DNA from: Leucobacter insecticola
Lineage (GTDB): Bacteria > Actinomycetota > Actinomycetes > Actinomycetales > Microbacteriaceae
Assembly (NCBI RefSeq): GCF_011382965.1
Contig: NZ_CP049934.1
Span: forward strand, 868,001-932,000
DNA: 64,000 nucleotides
Direction of reading: 5' to 3'
A program made the translations under genes and the position numbers. This document shows, piece by piece, positions 43,856 to 62,100 of the stretch. Below the pieces are notes generated by a model that ran no database searches, was not told where the DNA came from, and worked only from the letters and a program-made list of their open reading frames with translations. Within the stretch, counting starts at the first letter, position 1. Each line of letters begins with the position of its first letter.

Positions 43856-43916
43856 GCCAGCCAGCCTATCCCTCGCTTCGCCCGCCGTCACGCTCCGCGC
43901 TGTCTAGCCGGAGGGT

Positions 43917-43999
43917 GAGGTCCCAGAAAGCTGGCGAGGTCCCATGAAAACTGCGCGCAAAGATCCTGGGACCTCGCAGTTATTGTGGGACCTCGCCAG
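43917..43999. repeat. Intergenic interleaved dyad element (A-B-A'-B')
   Basis: The word AGGTCCCA occurs twice direct and twice inverse. GAGGTCCCAG (43917) pairs with CTGGGACCTC (43966), while CTGGCGAGGTCCCA (43931) pairs with TGGGACCTCGCCAG (43986). The pairs interleave, a pseudoknot-like order. It lies between the Nudix start and the end of a surface-protein gene. Confidence 0.7.
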
Positions 44000-44020
44000 C
44001 CCGAAGCAGCCCCGTCTTCG

Positions 44021-45721
44021 TCAGGCGCTGCGGCGCAGGCGGCGGAGCAGGACGCTCCCTCCAGCGGCGAGGAGCAGGATCGCGCCAAGGGTGACGGGCA
44101 GCGATGCGCTCGCGCCGGTAACCGCGAGCGCCGGGGCGGCAGCCGCCCCGCCCGAGGTGGTCGCTGCAGAGCTGCCCGCTCCGGTCACGGTCGTGGGTGT
44201 TGTGAGATCCTTGTCCTCCTGCGCGTACACCGCCCGCAGAGTGATGTTGCCCATAGATCCCGCCGCCACGATCGTGCTTGGATCATTGATGACCACCTCC
44301 GAGCCAGCGACCCCGTCCCTGCTCAGCACCCAGTGCGAGAAATACTCGGAGGAGTTACCCGGCACCGGCTTGCTTGAGAGCCCGAGGGTGTCTTCGATCG
44401 TGTAGCTCGTTGGCGCGGTGACACCGCTTGGCCAGTTTCCGCCGTGCAGATCGTAGGTGATTGTGTATTTGATTGGGCGGACGTCTGCGACGAACTGGTA
44501 GTTGTGGAAGGTGCCCTTGGTGATGGTGTAGGAGAATACGGGATCGCTCGCGTCATCGATCAGCCAGCCGAAGAACTCGTAGCCGGGTTTCGGATCAACC
44601 GTCGGGTTGGCGATCGAATCCTCATCGACGTTCGTGAAATCAGTGAGTGCGGGGCCGGTGAGCGAGGCGTGCGGACCGGGATCAAAAGAGATGACGGATC
44701 GTTCGACCGGCATCATCACGCTGCCTGTTTGACCAAACCCTGTGAGGTCGATCGGCGAGGCCTGCGGTGCCGTGACCCACAGGCCGGCGTCGCCTGCGAC
44801 CGCGTCGCTCCACGTCGCTACTGTGCCCACTGCCGGCGCGGCCGCCGATGAGAAGGCGTCGCCGCCGGCAAATGCGCCGACGAGGTCGCCAGCGAACTGG
44901 GGTGACGCACCCGAGGCGCGCACGCGGGTCGGGTGCGCGTAGTCGCTGCCGGTGATGGTGATGCCCTCGATGCGGATGGGGCTGTAGCCGCCACCGATAC
45001 CGGAGCCGTAGGTGCTTCGGGCGGTAACGTCGCCGCCGCTGATCGTGATGCCGGTGGTGCCGCCCGATCCGCTGCCGCCGCCGATGCCAGCGCCACCCTT
45101 TGAGGTGGCGGTGATGGTGCCGCCTTCGATGAAGATGTTGGAACCGTCAGTAAGGCGCTGACCGCCGATGGCCGCCCCGTCGCCCGTCGTGGTTGCGGTG
45201 AGAGTGCCCGTGGTGCCGGGCGCATTGGCGATGGTGAGCTTACCGTCGACGTTGCTCTTCTGTAGCGCGGCGCGTGTCGAGGTGACCCCGTTGTCTTGCA
45301 GGAGCGTGTTGCTGCCTGAGAGGAGGATCGTCACGTCGGCGCTCGGCTCAGCCACTTCGATGGCGGCATTTGCTGCTCCCGGTGAGGAGATGTTGACACC
45401 GTCAAGCGTCAGTTCAACCGTGCCGGTGACCGGGGCCCAGTTGCCTGGCTGGATCACGATCGTTGTCGTTGTGGGTGTCGCTGGATCGGCTTGTGTCACC
45501 GTGTGGCTGCCGGTGCCGAGCACGAGAGCCGGAGTTGCGCCGACCGTGCCGCACGTCATGTGGTCGACGCTGTCCGTCGTGACGAGCAGATCCCCGCAGC
45601 TGAAGTCGGCAGCGCTTGCGGGTTGGGTTGTGGCCAGAATCGGTGAGAGCACCAAGGCCCCGACCATTGCAACTGCTCCAGTTGTAGAAAAAAAGCGCCC
45701 AGTTGGCACACTATCCCCCAT
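44021..45721 (-). CDS. Cell-wall surface protein with InlB-type repeats, LAVTG sorting signal
   Basis: 566-aa secreted protein: signal peptide (cut near PASAA-DFSC), a Gly/Thr/Ser-rich beta-helical carbohydrate-binding-like region (for example GGAGIGGGSGSGGTTGITIS), InlB/Listeria-Bacteroides repeats (GYEFFGWLIDD, YDLHGGNWPSGV, YFSHWVLSRDG), and a C-terminal LAVTG, helix and RRLRRS tail. LAxTG motifs in this family are used by housekeeping class E sortases in actinobacteria. ATG 45721 overlaps the sequence GGGGGATAG. No adhesion target is evident. Confidence 0.88.
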   Translation of the reverse strand: MGDSVPTGRFFSTTGAVAMVGALVLSPILATTQPASAADFSCGDLLVTTDSVDHMTCGTVGATPALVLGTGSHTVTQADPATPTTTTIVIQPGNWAPVTGTVELTLDGVNISSPGAANAAIEVAEPSADVTILLSGSNTLLQDNGVTSTRAALQKSNVDGKLTIANAPGTTGTLTATTTGDGAAIGGQRLTDGSNIFIEGGTITATSKGGAGIGGGSGSGGTTGITISGGDVTARSTYGSGIGGGYSPIRIEGITITGSDYAHPTRVRASGASPQFAGDLVGAFAGGDAFSSAAAPAVGTVATWSDAVAGDAGLWVTAPQASPIDLTGFGQTGSVMMPVERSVISFDPGPHASLTGPALTDFTNVDEDSIANPTVDPKPGYEFFGWLIDDASDPVFSYTITKGTFHNYQFVADVRPIKYTITYDLHGGNWPSGVTAPTSYTIEDTLGLSSKPVPGNSSEYFSHWVLSRDGVAGSEVVINDPSTIVAAGSMGNITLRAVYAQEDKDLTTPTTVTGAGSSAATTSGGAAAAPALAVTGASASLPVTLGAILLLAAGGSVLLRRLRRSA

Positions 45722-45871
45722 TGTTATTGGTACACAGAATCCTTAGTTTATTCCAAACTGAATGATTGTAGCTTGGGGTTCAGATGGTGTCAACGGTCCC
45801 GGATCCGGACCCCAGTTCCCCACTCAGGGGTGCCTCTTTTGGGTTGTCGGTTACTCTCCTTTGGCCTCTCC

Positions 45872-47121
45872 CTACGGCCCGAGCGTCGTCAGCGGCACCA
45901 CATGCACACCGTCACCTCGTGTGTGCGCAACTCCAATGGGAACGACGACCACGCAGGCGGCAGGCGGACGTTCGAATTTTGCGGTGACCCGAAGGAGGTT
46001 GTGCGCCGCCGCGTCAACCGCTGCCTGGCCGAGCTTCACCTCGATGGCGACCCAGTCGCCATCTGTCCCCTCCACAACAATGTCAATCTCATCGCGTCCC
46101 TTCGTATCGCGATAGTGAAAGACTCCCCGCGCCCGCGCGGCCTCCGCGTAGACAAAGCAATCGTGCGTTACCTGTGATTCGAAGAGGTGGCCGAGTGTTT
46201 CGCGCTCTCGCAGCAACCTCTCGGTGCCGGCGCCCAGAAGTGACGCCGCAAGCGACGGATCTGCCAGATGTCGTTTGGGGTCTGCATCGCGGTGGTCCGA
46301 GATCTCAGCTTCGGGGACCACGCCGCCTGATCTTCAAGTACATACATGCGCTGGGCGATATCCACGAGGGTGCGAATGAGCTGGTCTCCGGCGGAAATAT
46401 GCTCCGTTTCGTTGACGCGCCGCTGCATCGCGGCAAGGCTGGCCGGCTGTGCCACCAGCGCGGCGAGGCCCCGGAGAAGGGCGCGGAACCGGCGCGGGTC
46501 CCGCCCCGATCCTGCGAGTGTTGGGAAATCGTGCTCCACGAGATCCGTCACGTAGGCGAGGGCGCGCTGTTGCGCCTCGCCCTCGTCGAGCGTCTGCCAG
46601 CCGGGCCAGCCGCCCGTGATGATACGCCGCACCACGCCCTCAAAGTCAACTTCACTCTGCACGGGCGCTATTGTTTCCCCCTGGAGCAGTGCACGCAACG
46701 AAACCTGTCCGGTGGAGTGCTCTGTCTCGGTGAAGGTCATGGTTCGCATCCGAACGTGGGCAAACCGCCCGGCCCCCGAATGTCGGAGGGGAGTGAGATC
46801 TGGAGCTGCAGATCCGGAGAGAATGAACTGTCCGACGGATCTGCGCGCGTCGACAGCGTGCCGCACCTCATTCCACAATTCCGGCACCATCTGCCACTCG
46901 TCGAGGAGCCGGGGAGTGTCCCCGGCGAGAGCCACCGTTGGCTGCTCGCGACTCAGGATCGCGAGAGGGTCACTGCTGTCGAGACGCAGCTCGGATTTCG
47001 AGAATCGACGAGCACTCTCCGTCTTGCCGACGGCTCTTGCTCCGTCGATCGCGACCGCACCGGCGAACGTCAGCGATTCGGTGATGAGCTGATCCGTGGT
47101 TCGCCGAGTGTAGTCGTCCAT
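45872..47121 (-). CDS. AAA_14 / DUF4143 ATPase (COG1373 type; frame broken)
   Basis: About 416 aa after repair. P-loop GARAVGKTES (Lys33), Walker B RLLDEWQMVP and a sensor-like FILSGSAAPD form the ATPase domain (1-170). A winged-helix linker and the C-terminal DUF4143 region follow, ending in a nuclease-like motif DEIDIVVE...WVAIEVKLGQ of the PD-(D/E)XK type. The frame breaks at GGGG (46313-46316, + strand); one more base joins both parts. The same length and Lys33 position as the ATPase at 55997-57247. Start ATG 47121 follows TATATT by a few bases only, suggesting leaderless mRNA. Function of the family is unknown. Confidence 0.85.
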
Positions 47122-47141
47122 GACGTCAATATAGTGCAGAA

Positions 47142-47233
47142 CAACGGATAAATCCACACCTCATCAACGGATTACTCCACTGCTCATCAACGGATTACTC
47201 CACTCCTGGCCAAGGGCTACTCCACCTTGCGGT
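47142..47233 (-). repeat. Four tandem 23-bp repeats before a DUF4143 ATPase gene
   Basis: Units start at 47142, 47165, 47188 and 47211 (+ strand coordinates). The middle two are CAACGGATTACTCCACT plus six bases and nearly identical; the outer ones are degenerate. Read in the gene's sense each unit is GGAGTAATCCGTTGAT with 7 more bases. The gene-proximal unit abuts a -10 TATATT (47128-47133) and the ATG at 47121. Probable operator or iteron array. Confidence 0.88.
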
Positions 47234-47256
47234 GGGGCACGCCCCTCGCGCGGTGC

Positions 47257-47529
47257 CTACCCGCCAGGAAGCTCGTCGATGCCCTCGGGCACACGCTGCG
47301 ACCGCGCCCAGGGTTCGCGATCCCGCCGCGCAACACGCTTCATTCGCTGCGTTTCCTCGGTTCGTACCCGAGTGAGCACCGCGATCACGGCCGCGCGTTC
47401 CTCGTCGCTGACCGTGCGAGTGACAAAGTGAATGTCTTCTCCGCGCAGGGTCGTGTCAGCCTCGCCAGCGCCCTCGCGGCGAGCTGCGTCGCGTGCAGAG
47501 GCGTCGGGCGGGAGCATCTTCCCGCTCAC
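47257..47529 (-). CDS. Acyl-CoA carboxylase epsilon subunit
   Basis: 90 aa, the size of AccE/PccE. The conserved end [17 protein letters not shown] and the C-terminal REPWARSQR pattern are those of the small actinobacterial carboxylase subunit that tightens the alpha-beta complex. The start overlaps the stop of the beta subunit gene upstream, so they are coupled. Confidence 0.85.
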
Positions 47530-55805: not shown

Positions 55806-55894
55806 TGGTGCTTCTTTCTGCTCGTTCGAGATCTGACCCCAATAGCCTCCGCAACGAACCTATCTGTTTCGATACTGCCGCGTCGATGCGCCGC

Positions 55895-55986
55895 GGCTAT
55901 TTCCGATAAATTTATGCGGCTGTTTCCGATAAAGAAGAACGGCTATTTTCGATAAATAACCTCGGCTGGTTCCGATTCTGAGCTAT
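55895..55986 (+). repeat. Four tandem 23-bp repeats before a DUF4143 ATPase gene
   Basis: Units start at 55895, 55918, 55941 and 55964. Consensus GGCTATTTCCGATAAA plus 7 variable bases; the fourth unit diverges after GGCTGGTTCCGAT and merges with a -10 TATGCT (55984-55989) about 8 nt before ATG 55997. Period and place match the array at 47142-47233, and TCCG is at the same unit position. Confidence 0.9.
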
Positions 55987-55996
55987 GCTGGGCGAT

Positions 55997-57247
55997 ATGA
56001 GTGACCTGATAGTGCGGAGTTTGAGCGCGGTTTTGCCTCATCGGGTCGCAGAGACACCTGTGATGCTTTTGGAAGGGCCGCGAAGCGTTGGAAAATCTAC
56101 GCTGCTCGCGGAGCTCACGCCATCGAGTGGGCATCCAATCTTCGACCTTGATCAGGGGCAGTTCCGGCGACTTGCCGAGCAAAACGAATCCGCGCTCGTC
56201 GCCAGCGAATCGCCCGTACTGATTGACGAGTACCAGCGTGTGCCCTCCCTGCTCGACGCCATTAAGGCGCGGCTGAACCAGAGCTCCCGTCCCGGAATGT
56301 TTGTGCTCGCCGGATCATCCAGCTATGACTCGCTGCCTCAGGGCACCCAAGCGTTGACCGGTCGAATACAGCGCCTGACAGTGATGCCCTTTACCCAGAC
56401 AGAGATTGATGGCACCGACAACCGTTTCATCGAGCGCGCATTTGAATCATCCATCACGCACTCTGCGACTCCGGCTCTCACGGAGCGTGCTGAGTATATT
56501 GATCGGATTATGCGCGGTGGGATGCCCCTCGCGGTCGCTGCGGGATCAACCGATGCTCGGAGTCGTTGGTTGCAGGGTCATGTGCGGCAGTCGCTGGAGC
56601 GGGATGCTGGGGAAATTCGCCGGATCCATCGCAAGGCTGACTTGCGCCATTTCCTCAATAGAATCGCGGGGCAAACGGCGAGCTTGCTGAACGTGAGCAA
56701 GCTTGCTCAGGGCTTGGAGTCGTCGCGTGACACTGCGGCCGCCTACCTCGAACTGCTGGAATCGTTGTTTCTGGTGAGCTCGTTGCCTGCATGGGGCACG
56801 ACGATCTCGTCTCGAAGCGTGGCAGCACCAAAAATACACGTCGTCGATTCGGGCATCGGTGCACATTTGCTTCGGTTGAGCAGTGCCAAGTTGCGTCGGC
56901 TTGATCCTTCGGCCATGACCGAGTTCGGCCATCTGCTCGAGTCGTTCGTGGTGCAAGAAGTGATCCGACAAACGACGTGGATGAGTGCGCCCGTCTTTGT
57001 GGGGCATTGGCGTACGCGTGACAACGATGAGGTTGACCTGATCCTCGAACGTAGCGATGGCGCGGTGATCGGTATCGAGATAAAGGCAGGTGAGCAGGTG
57101 GAGAGCCATCAATTCTCTGGGCTCAGGAAGCTTCGGGACCGCCTCGGGTCTTCATTTGTCGCCGGGATCGCCTTCCACCTTGGCAAGGTCGGTTATCAAG
57201 TGGAGGATCGACTCCATTCGCTCCCGGTGGATCGACTGTGGCGGTAG
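55997..57247 (+). CDS. AAA_14 / DUF4143 ATPase (COG1373 type)
   Basis: 416 aa. P-loop EGPRSVGKSTLL (Lys33), Walker B VLIDEYQRVP, and FVLAGSSSYD form the ATPase domain. The DUF4143 part follows, with a winged-helix linker (LNVSKLAQGLESSRDTAAAY) and a C-terminal nuclease-like DEVDLILERSDGAVIGIEIK motif. Intact, in contrast to its broken relative at 45872-47121, and of the same length. ATG 55997 lies close behind a -10 box; 55985 is in frame. Base composition is lower in GC than the neighbours. Biological role unknown; families of this kind are often mobile. Confidence 0.9.
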   Translation: MSDLIVRSLSAVLPHRVAETPVMLLEGPRSVGKSTLLAELTPSSGHPIFDLDQGQFRRLAEQNESALVASESPVLIDEYQRVPSLLDAIKARLNQSSRPGMFVLAGSSSYDSLPQGTQALTGRIQRLTVMPFTQTEIDGTDNRFIERAFESSITHSATPALTERAEYIDRIMRGGMPLAVAAGSTDARSRWLQGHVRQSLERDAGEIRRIHRKADLRHFLNRIAGQTASLLNVSKLAQGLESSRDTAAAYLELLESLFLVSSLPAWGTTISSRSVAAPKIHVVDSGIGAHLLRLSSAKLRRLDPSAMTEFGHLLESFVVQEVIRQTTWMSAPVFVGHWRTRDNDEVDLILERSDGAVIGIEIKAGEQVESHQFSGLRKLRDRLGSSFVAGIAFHLGKVGYQVEDRLHSLPVDRLWR

Positions 57248-62008: not shown

Positions 62009-62064
62009 AGCGCACGAGCCACGGCTTCTACGCAATTGCATATTCCCCACTCGTAGATCGACGA

Positions 62065-62100
62065 TTTTTACACTGAGATATGACATTTTTTTACTGAGAT
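62065..62100. promoter_or_regulatory. AT-rich direct repeat upstream of a surface-protein gene
   Basis: TTTTTACACTGAGAT (62065) and TTTTTTACTGAGAT (62087) repeat with about 22-bp spacing in an unusually AT-rich stretch. The next gene start is about 165 bp downstream, across 62101-62266 in which I see no gene. Possible activator site or promoter. Confidence 0.4.

Follow-up and report, generated by a model that had tools for sequence, protein, structure and literature searches.

Plasmid iterons are private tandem direct repeats of about 17–22 bp. They are read by the product of the adjacent gene, which also controls its own promoter. In phage repressor immunity groups and in the C-protein control of restriction-modification systems, operator and regulator diversify fast, and related elements coexist. 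Their regulators are dedicated small proteins, and their sites are mostly palindromic. At a defence locus, RptR, a separate 9-kDa protein, is the autorepressor of a restriction-modification defence island (PMC12255303).

Many of the DUF4143 ATPase genes analyzed here carry tandem repeats upstream. As described for RptR (PMC12255303), direct repeats are located at the promoter of a (candidate) defence locus and overlap the promoter core. RptR is the product of the first gene of its locus and binds the repeats, whereas here the gene directly behind the array is that of the ATPase itself. The RptR repeats are 9 bp long and come with a conserved TAGCTA site; here they are 22–23 bp long with gene-specific letters, and the protein is a large ATPase. 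With plasmid iterons the loci share tandem direct repeats of about 17–22 bp, but no replication initiator is adjacent (two proteins of the window were scanned) and the sites are phased to the promoter. Unlike immunity groups and C-proteins, they combine a large ATPase with direct repeats. The literature on DUF4143, COG1373, PF13635 and PDC-S01, in a partial coverage with few subscription journals and no preprints, contained no promoter arrays or autoregulation. Within that coverage this agrees with a sequence-only reading of the same DNA, which knew of no described system for COG1373 ATPases. The novelty would be that an unexpected protein family has private tandem operators of the kind seen in iterons and immunity groups; PDC-S01 and its abundance are known.

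Two DUF4143 ATPase genes and their upstream repeats

The window is the whole 64,000-nucleotide stretch of Leucobacter insecticola DNA that was analyzed. The focal locus has the following features.

47204..47225, minus strand: outermost decayed unit, at a 22-bp step; 13 of 22 letters identical to the next unit (by eye)
47181..47203, minus strand: operator unit 2, GTGGAGTAATCCGTTGATGAGCA (sequence, TRF)
47158..47180, minus strand: operator unit 3, GTGGAGTAATCCGTTGATGAGGT, ending GGT (sequence, TRF)
47135..47157, minus strand: operator unit 4, GTGGATTTATCCGTTGTTCTGCA, promoter-proximal (sequence)
47128..47133, minus strand: -10 hexamer TATATT, with a 6-nt spacer to the ATG at 47119–47121
46168..47121, minus strand: focal ATPase gene, first frame, covering AAA_14 and the start of DUF4143 (ORF, Pfam)
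45872..46321, minus strand: remainder of DUF4143 in the other frame, with the frameshift near 46.28 kb

The sequence-only reading had described four 23-bp units at the -10. The array and the TATATT before the ATG were confirmed, but the array (window 47135–47225) consists of three clear 23-bp head-to-tail units and a decayed fourth one. TRF reported the repeat at 47142–47207 with a period of 23, 2.9 copies and 88% matches. In a profile search, AAA_14 was found in the focal gene at 1.8e-13, and DUF4143 was spread over two reading frames. The gene is probably broken by a frameshift. The split may reflect decay or, less likely, programmed frameshifting. A CCCAAAC heptamer is located at the frame junction, about 46280. 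As the cause of split members, programmed frameshifting was considered and dropped, as the inspected loci resembled ordinary truncation and frameshifts.

The second locus is intact.

55894..55983, plus strand: operator array with four units of the CGGCTATTTCCGATAAA type, in front of the intact paralog (sequence, TRF)
55984..55989, plus strand: -10 hexamer TATGCT, 7 nt before the ATG at 55997
55997..57247, plus strand: intact COG1373/PDC-S01 ATPase with AAA_14, predicted winged helix and DUF4143 (Pfam, PADLOC, AlphaFold2)
56633..56785, plus strand: predicted winged helix-turn-helix, residues 213–263, recognition helix 244–256 (AlphaFold2, mean pLDDT 91.9)

The window was divided into 440 half-overlapping 290-nt segments. 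At lag 22/23, the two arrays were the only ones to reach 15 of 20 identities, and chance is therefore a poor explanation of them. The units of the two loci share GG and TCCG, as the earlier reading had noted; they are identical at 8 of 16 positions. The eight units of the own genome matched each other at best rotation with a mean of 9.32/16 and a maximum of 12, about as well as shuffled units did (mean 8.94/16, 95th percentile 11), so little weight can be placed on the shared GG and TCCG. A two-copy 21-bp repeat was also seen at window 62055–62100; the ORFs flanking it had no Pfam match over the cut-off and no PADLOC match.

Identity and distribution of the family

The intact gene matched PF13173 (2.9e-20) and PF13635 (2.6e-41) and thus has the AAA_14 plus DUF4143 architecture. 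The protein encoded at window 55997–57244 matched PADLOC model PDLC04790 at 4.7e-139, and all four proteins given to PADLOC, including the focal gene's first frame, matched PDC-S01 models. Over all prokaryotes, PDC-S01 is described as fourth in frequency among defences, with validation pending for most such candidates (PMC12988326). PDC-S01 is a defence candidate by its PADLOC listing, and any link to defence here is a presumed one.

The own genome contains eight DUF4143 genes (nine matches, two of which are the halves of the focal gene). With the own genome included, any member was present in 7/54 genomes of the genus, 27/199 of the family, 54/149 of the order, 43/148 of the class and 51/149 of the phylum. 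Besides the own genome, 6/53 congeners had a member, a patchy distribution. Truncated or frameshifted members recurred (L062, L383, L362, L376, L384), suggesting rapid gene turnover. Patchiness together with several broken members is what genes with frequent gain and loss should show. Relatives were found on 360 of 72,556 plasmid records. Phage records gave eight weak matches among 50,697, and among viral contigs 64 stretches matched the search patterns, of which two encode a relative. A phage origin was rejected on this rarity; the family is not a phage gene so far as seen.

Arrays upstream of relatives

Further members were collected from searches by rank (up to 30 loci each), multi-copy genomes, an order-level protein search, genome contigs (best 80 of 485) and four plasmids. 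Loci were kept only if a single open frame of the gene contained both a Walker A and a C-terminal PD-(D/E)XK-like pattern (131 loci, for example, gave 104 genes), and genes with identical cores were left out of the counts. The focal gene, being split, was read by eye and is outside the computed counts. Alignment A2 held 46 of the 50 sequences first listed. To score arrays, the about 290 nt preceding the Walker A region were compared with themselves at a given lag, and the best 20-base identity stretch was taken.

By eye, 22/23-bp direct repeats with differing letters adjoined the start in 8/8 members of the own genome, and by score 7/7 open-frame members had an array. Across 316 distinct genes, 228 scored at least 14/20 at lags 22–24, 200 at least 15 and 164 at least 16. 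For 267 genes at lag 22/23, a score of at least 15 was reached by 156 upstream regions, 2 coding controls and 0 dinucleotide-shuffled controls, and by 1 upstream region at lag 26/27; at a threshold of 14 these numbers were 180, 4, 4 and 8, respectively. Of 1370 background segments taken from these loci, 43, 16 and 7 passed thresholds of 14, 15 and 16; neighbouring members may account for some of them. In the lag spectrum of 233 genes at 16 or more, lag 22 was found in 26 genes and lag 23 in 91, and the doubled lags 44 and 46 in 16 and 55. Minor bumps were present at 33 and 42 (7 and 5 genes), other lags from 14 to 51 had 0–2 genes, and the coding control had 0 at lag 22 and 1 at lag 23.

At 14 or more and lags 22/23, arrays were present in 5/5 genes of the genus and in 204/280 of other Actinobacteria, a group whose phylum was assigned by search rank or record title; 76 of these genes were without an array. 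The coding control of this large group gave 4/279 at 14 or more. Outside Actinobacteria and Bacteroidota, 7/11 members had an array, including an Acidobacteriota MAG, Thermus and an Agrobacterium plasmid. None of the 13 Bacteroidota members had a 22/23-bp array at 14/20 or more. These counts indicated that the array plan is neither universal nor confined to Actinobacteria. The proposal that paralogs share one plan with different letters was thus extended from two loci to all eight paralogs, many Actinobacteria and some other phyla. In some Bacteroidota upstream regions (L287, L292, L303, L305, L293, L297 were read by eye), inverted TTTGCAAA or GGGAATC...GATTCCC was seen beside the promoter. 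Possibly, these inverted motifs are the same control in another layout.

Anatomy of the operator and promoter

The repeats are direct, not inverted. In 163 arrays, the period was 23 bp in 126, 22 bp in 33 and 24 bp in 4, and the copy number was two (36), three (55), four (53), five (15) or more (4). In 85 genes with period 23, the phase was fixed to the -10: counted upstream from its first base, the core from -8 to -23 was 0.64–0.79 identical to the neighbouring copy, the 4 nt beside the -10 were 0.38–0.47 identical, and this profile recurred with the period. In a register fit from DNA alone, 126 of 171 genes deviated by at most 3 nt from one phase, and 27 lay about 8–13 bp off it, near one helical turn and partly at the edge of the range tried. 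Between adjacent copies (187 pairs, 91 genes), identity was 0.81 for the core and 0.54 for the linker; the pairs had been picked on their first 18 positions, a choice that gives the core an advantage. A kept core and a less kept linker are expected of protein sites and not of fresh duplications.

Of 198 genes, 167 had a distance of 6 or 7 nt between the -10 and the start; the score by which the -10 was picked prefers this spacing, so the values lean that way. The composition of 154 genes, chosen for a spacing of 6 or 7, was TAnnnT with G at -2 (0.61) and G or T at -3. No -35 box was apparent in these genes: the best TTGACA match averaged 2.48 against 2.31 for shuffled sequences, and 1/154 genes reached at least 5/6. 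From these features we infer leaderless promoters that resemble the extended -10 kind and whose -35/spacer region is covered by the nearest unit. In one subclass (L034–L036, L041), the repeat unit by eye contains a -10-like TATAGT, and each unit could be a promoter.

Proposed self-control of the ATPase genes

We lean, with modest confidence, towards each ATPase gene being controlled by its own product through a private tandem operator, probably by repression. The operator would consist of two to five head-to-tail sites of about 16–17 bp, repeated every 22–23 bp up to the -10. The promoter would be leaderless and lack a -35 box, and transcription presumably starts at the ATG. The STAND-like ATPase, which has a predicted winged helix, would bind these sites head to tail, probably as an oligomer whose assembly may depend on the nucleotide state. 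Direct repeats fit such an assembly, and head-to-tail assembly is usual for AAA/STAND proteins. Bound ATPase would cover the region that RNA polymerase needs and keep its own expression low until it is lost, titrated away or altered in its state. Quick joint change of operator and protein would leave resident copies that share no sites.

Since the promoter itself is overlaid by the unit closest to it, repression is preferred; the lack of a -35 box keeps activation in play. The ATPase could bind its private repeats and bring RNA polymerase to a -35-less promoter. MalT is a STAND activator that binds direct repeats, and the STAND-like fold, the direct rather than inverted repeats and the lack of a -35 element all suit such auto-activation. 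However, the nearest unit covers roughly -20 to -36, whereas for a class II activator a position near -41.5 would be expected, and G at -2 (0.61) with T or G at -3 suggests an extended -10 that is workable without an activator. An activator that works through the spacer might also be compatible with sites centred near -28. We regard auto-activation as unlikely.

Alternatively, a host regulator other than the ATPase might bind the arrays, as the ATPase is only the presumed binder. Against this, the letters differ among the eight genes of one genome at constant period and phase, so one regulator could hardly read all eight arrays, and outside the arrays themselves the genome had no site within one mismatch of either of the two operators searched. 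We consider such a regulator very improbable.

If self-control through the array holds, the gene-specific tandem operator is a first handle on how PDC-S01 genes stay silent or switch. The array makes the question of the inducer directly testable with reporters, and some 200 natural protein–operator pairs could be used to study specificity.

Privacy of the operators and their relation to the protein

The focal 16-mer was found exactly twice in the whole genome, both times in the array. The next-best matches were one site with two mismatches (genome 720437) and eight with three, one of which is the array's last unit. The focal pattern with up to three mismatches had 11 matches, three being its own units; the other eight compare with four for the reversed control. 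The site at genome 720437, the best of these eight, had by eye no surrounding array and was taken as chance. The other array's 17-mer, at up to three mismatches, had three sites in the genome, all in its own array, and the control had four. For these two of the eight operators, the genome thus contained no copy within one mismatch outside the own array.

For between-genome pairs, rotation-free unit similarity stayed at the background of about 9.7–10.1 of 18 up to 50% protein identity. It was 10.6 at 50–60%, 11.8 at 60–70%, 13.4 at 70–80% and 14.4 above. The Mantel rho between letters and protein was 0.13, and the highest of 500 permutations was 0.092 (127 genes). As far as these sequences tell, the link between unit letters and protein is confined to close relatives, above 55–60% identity. 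None of 181 within-genome pairs reached 15/18, with few pairs closer than 50% and about 0.4 predicted from the between-genome rates. At equal protein identity, within-genome pairs were no less alike than between-genome pairs.

The idea that each ATPase co-evolves with a private operator was therefore borne out in part: two operators were private, 0/181 within-genome pairs had an operator in common and the Mantel correlation was positive, but tracking was seen only above about 55–60% identity. Such short-range tracking is also what plain descent with fast drift would give. The sites may be truly autoregulatory and carry no identity code, with protein and operator drifting jointly by descent and the copies being old, unrelated acquisitions. 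The range of the tracking, the patchy distribution (6/53 congeners) and the within-genome pairs being no less alike are all in its favour. It is compatible with the operator anatomy of the self-control proposal and denies only selection for distinctness, and we see even chances for it. A further-reaching possibility, which we hold to be doubtful, is that the genes form immunity groups across the family: private operators and the reading domain would diversify by selection, each resident copy would govern itself alone, an incoming copy with the same operator would be silenced when it arrives, and the winged helix would read the DNA.

Predicted fold and candidate reading residues

The intact ATPase is predicted to have a STAND-like NBD-HD-WHD fold. 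Its model was structurally similar to PABY2304 (2qen), SSO1545 (2fna), CED-4, NLRs and Avs5. Compared with those STAND ATPases, the family adds the DUF4143 end, and a DNA-reading winged helix is a proposal made here only. In the model, the predicted winged helix-turn-helix is a plausible reader of the operator; in STAND proteins this helix is the WHD, which does not have to contact DNA.

The suggested comparison of letters with the DNA-binding helix gave a signal with one similarity measure and none with two others. Rotation-free operator similarity (200 arrays) favoured residues 230–272, and this signal came from 117 genes, not the other 83, at both the 0.6 and the 0.7 cap. Register-fixed and shift-tolerant measures mostly favoured residues 313–364. 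The top residue–base pairs of one analysis did not return in a later one. If a STAND-like winged helix does read DNA, this would bear on where the STAND proteins of animal and plant immunity obtained their winged-helix domain.

The islet around the focal gene

The focal gene and its array lie in a small variable islet.

43875..47270, no strand: islet of about 3.4 kb with 44021–45721, the focal ATPase gene and the array (comparison with sister loci)

In the search for sister loci, 52 of 54 genomes had a match, and the 11 best-scoring loci outside the own genome were taken as sister loci. The islet was absent in 11/11 of them: the match up to window 43.67–43.87 kb ended within about 160 bp of the match from 47.27 kb on. 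Repeats of 22–23 bp in direct order resemble plasmid iterons, and with the focal gene in a variable islet and relatives on 360 plasmid records, the arrays might be iteron- or partition-like sites serving replication, partition or mobility of the islet. Yet they are in phase with the -10 and adjoin the start in many genes, the genes here are on a 2.9-Mb contig, and a scan of the intact protein and of the focal gene's first frame gave no Rep family. A role of this kind is scarcely probable, and self-control by the ATPase is kept as the preferred reading. In the islet, 44021–45721 encodes a 566-aa putative surface protein with weak matches to beta-helix and List_Bact-repeat families, below the Pfam cut-off. 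The islet is flanked by a NUDIX gene and by what is presumably an acyl-CoA carboxylase gene.
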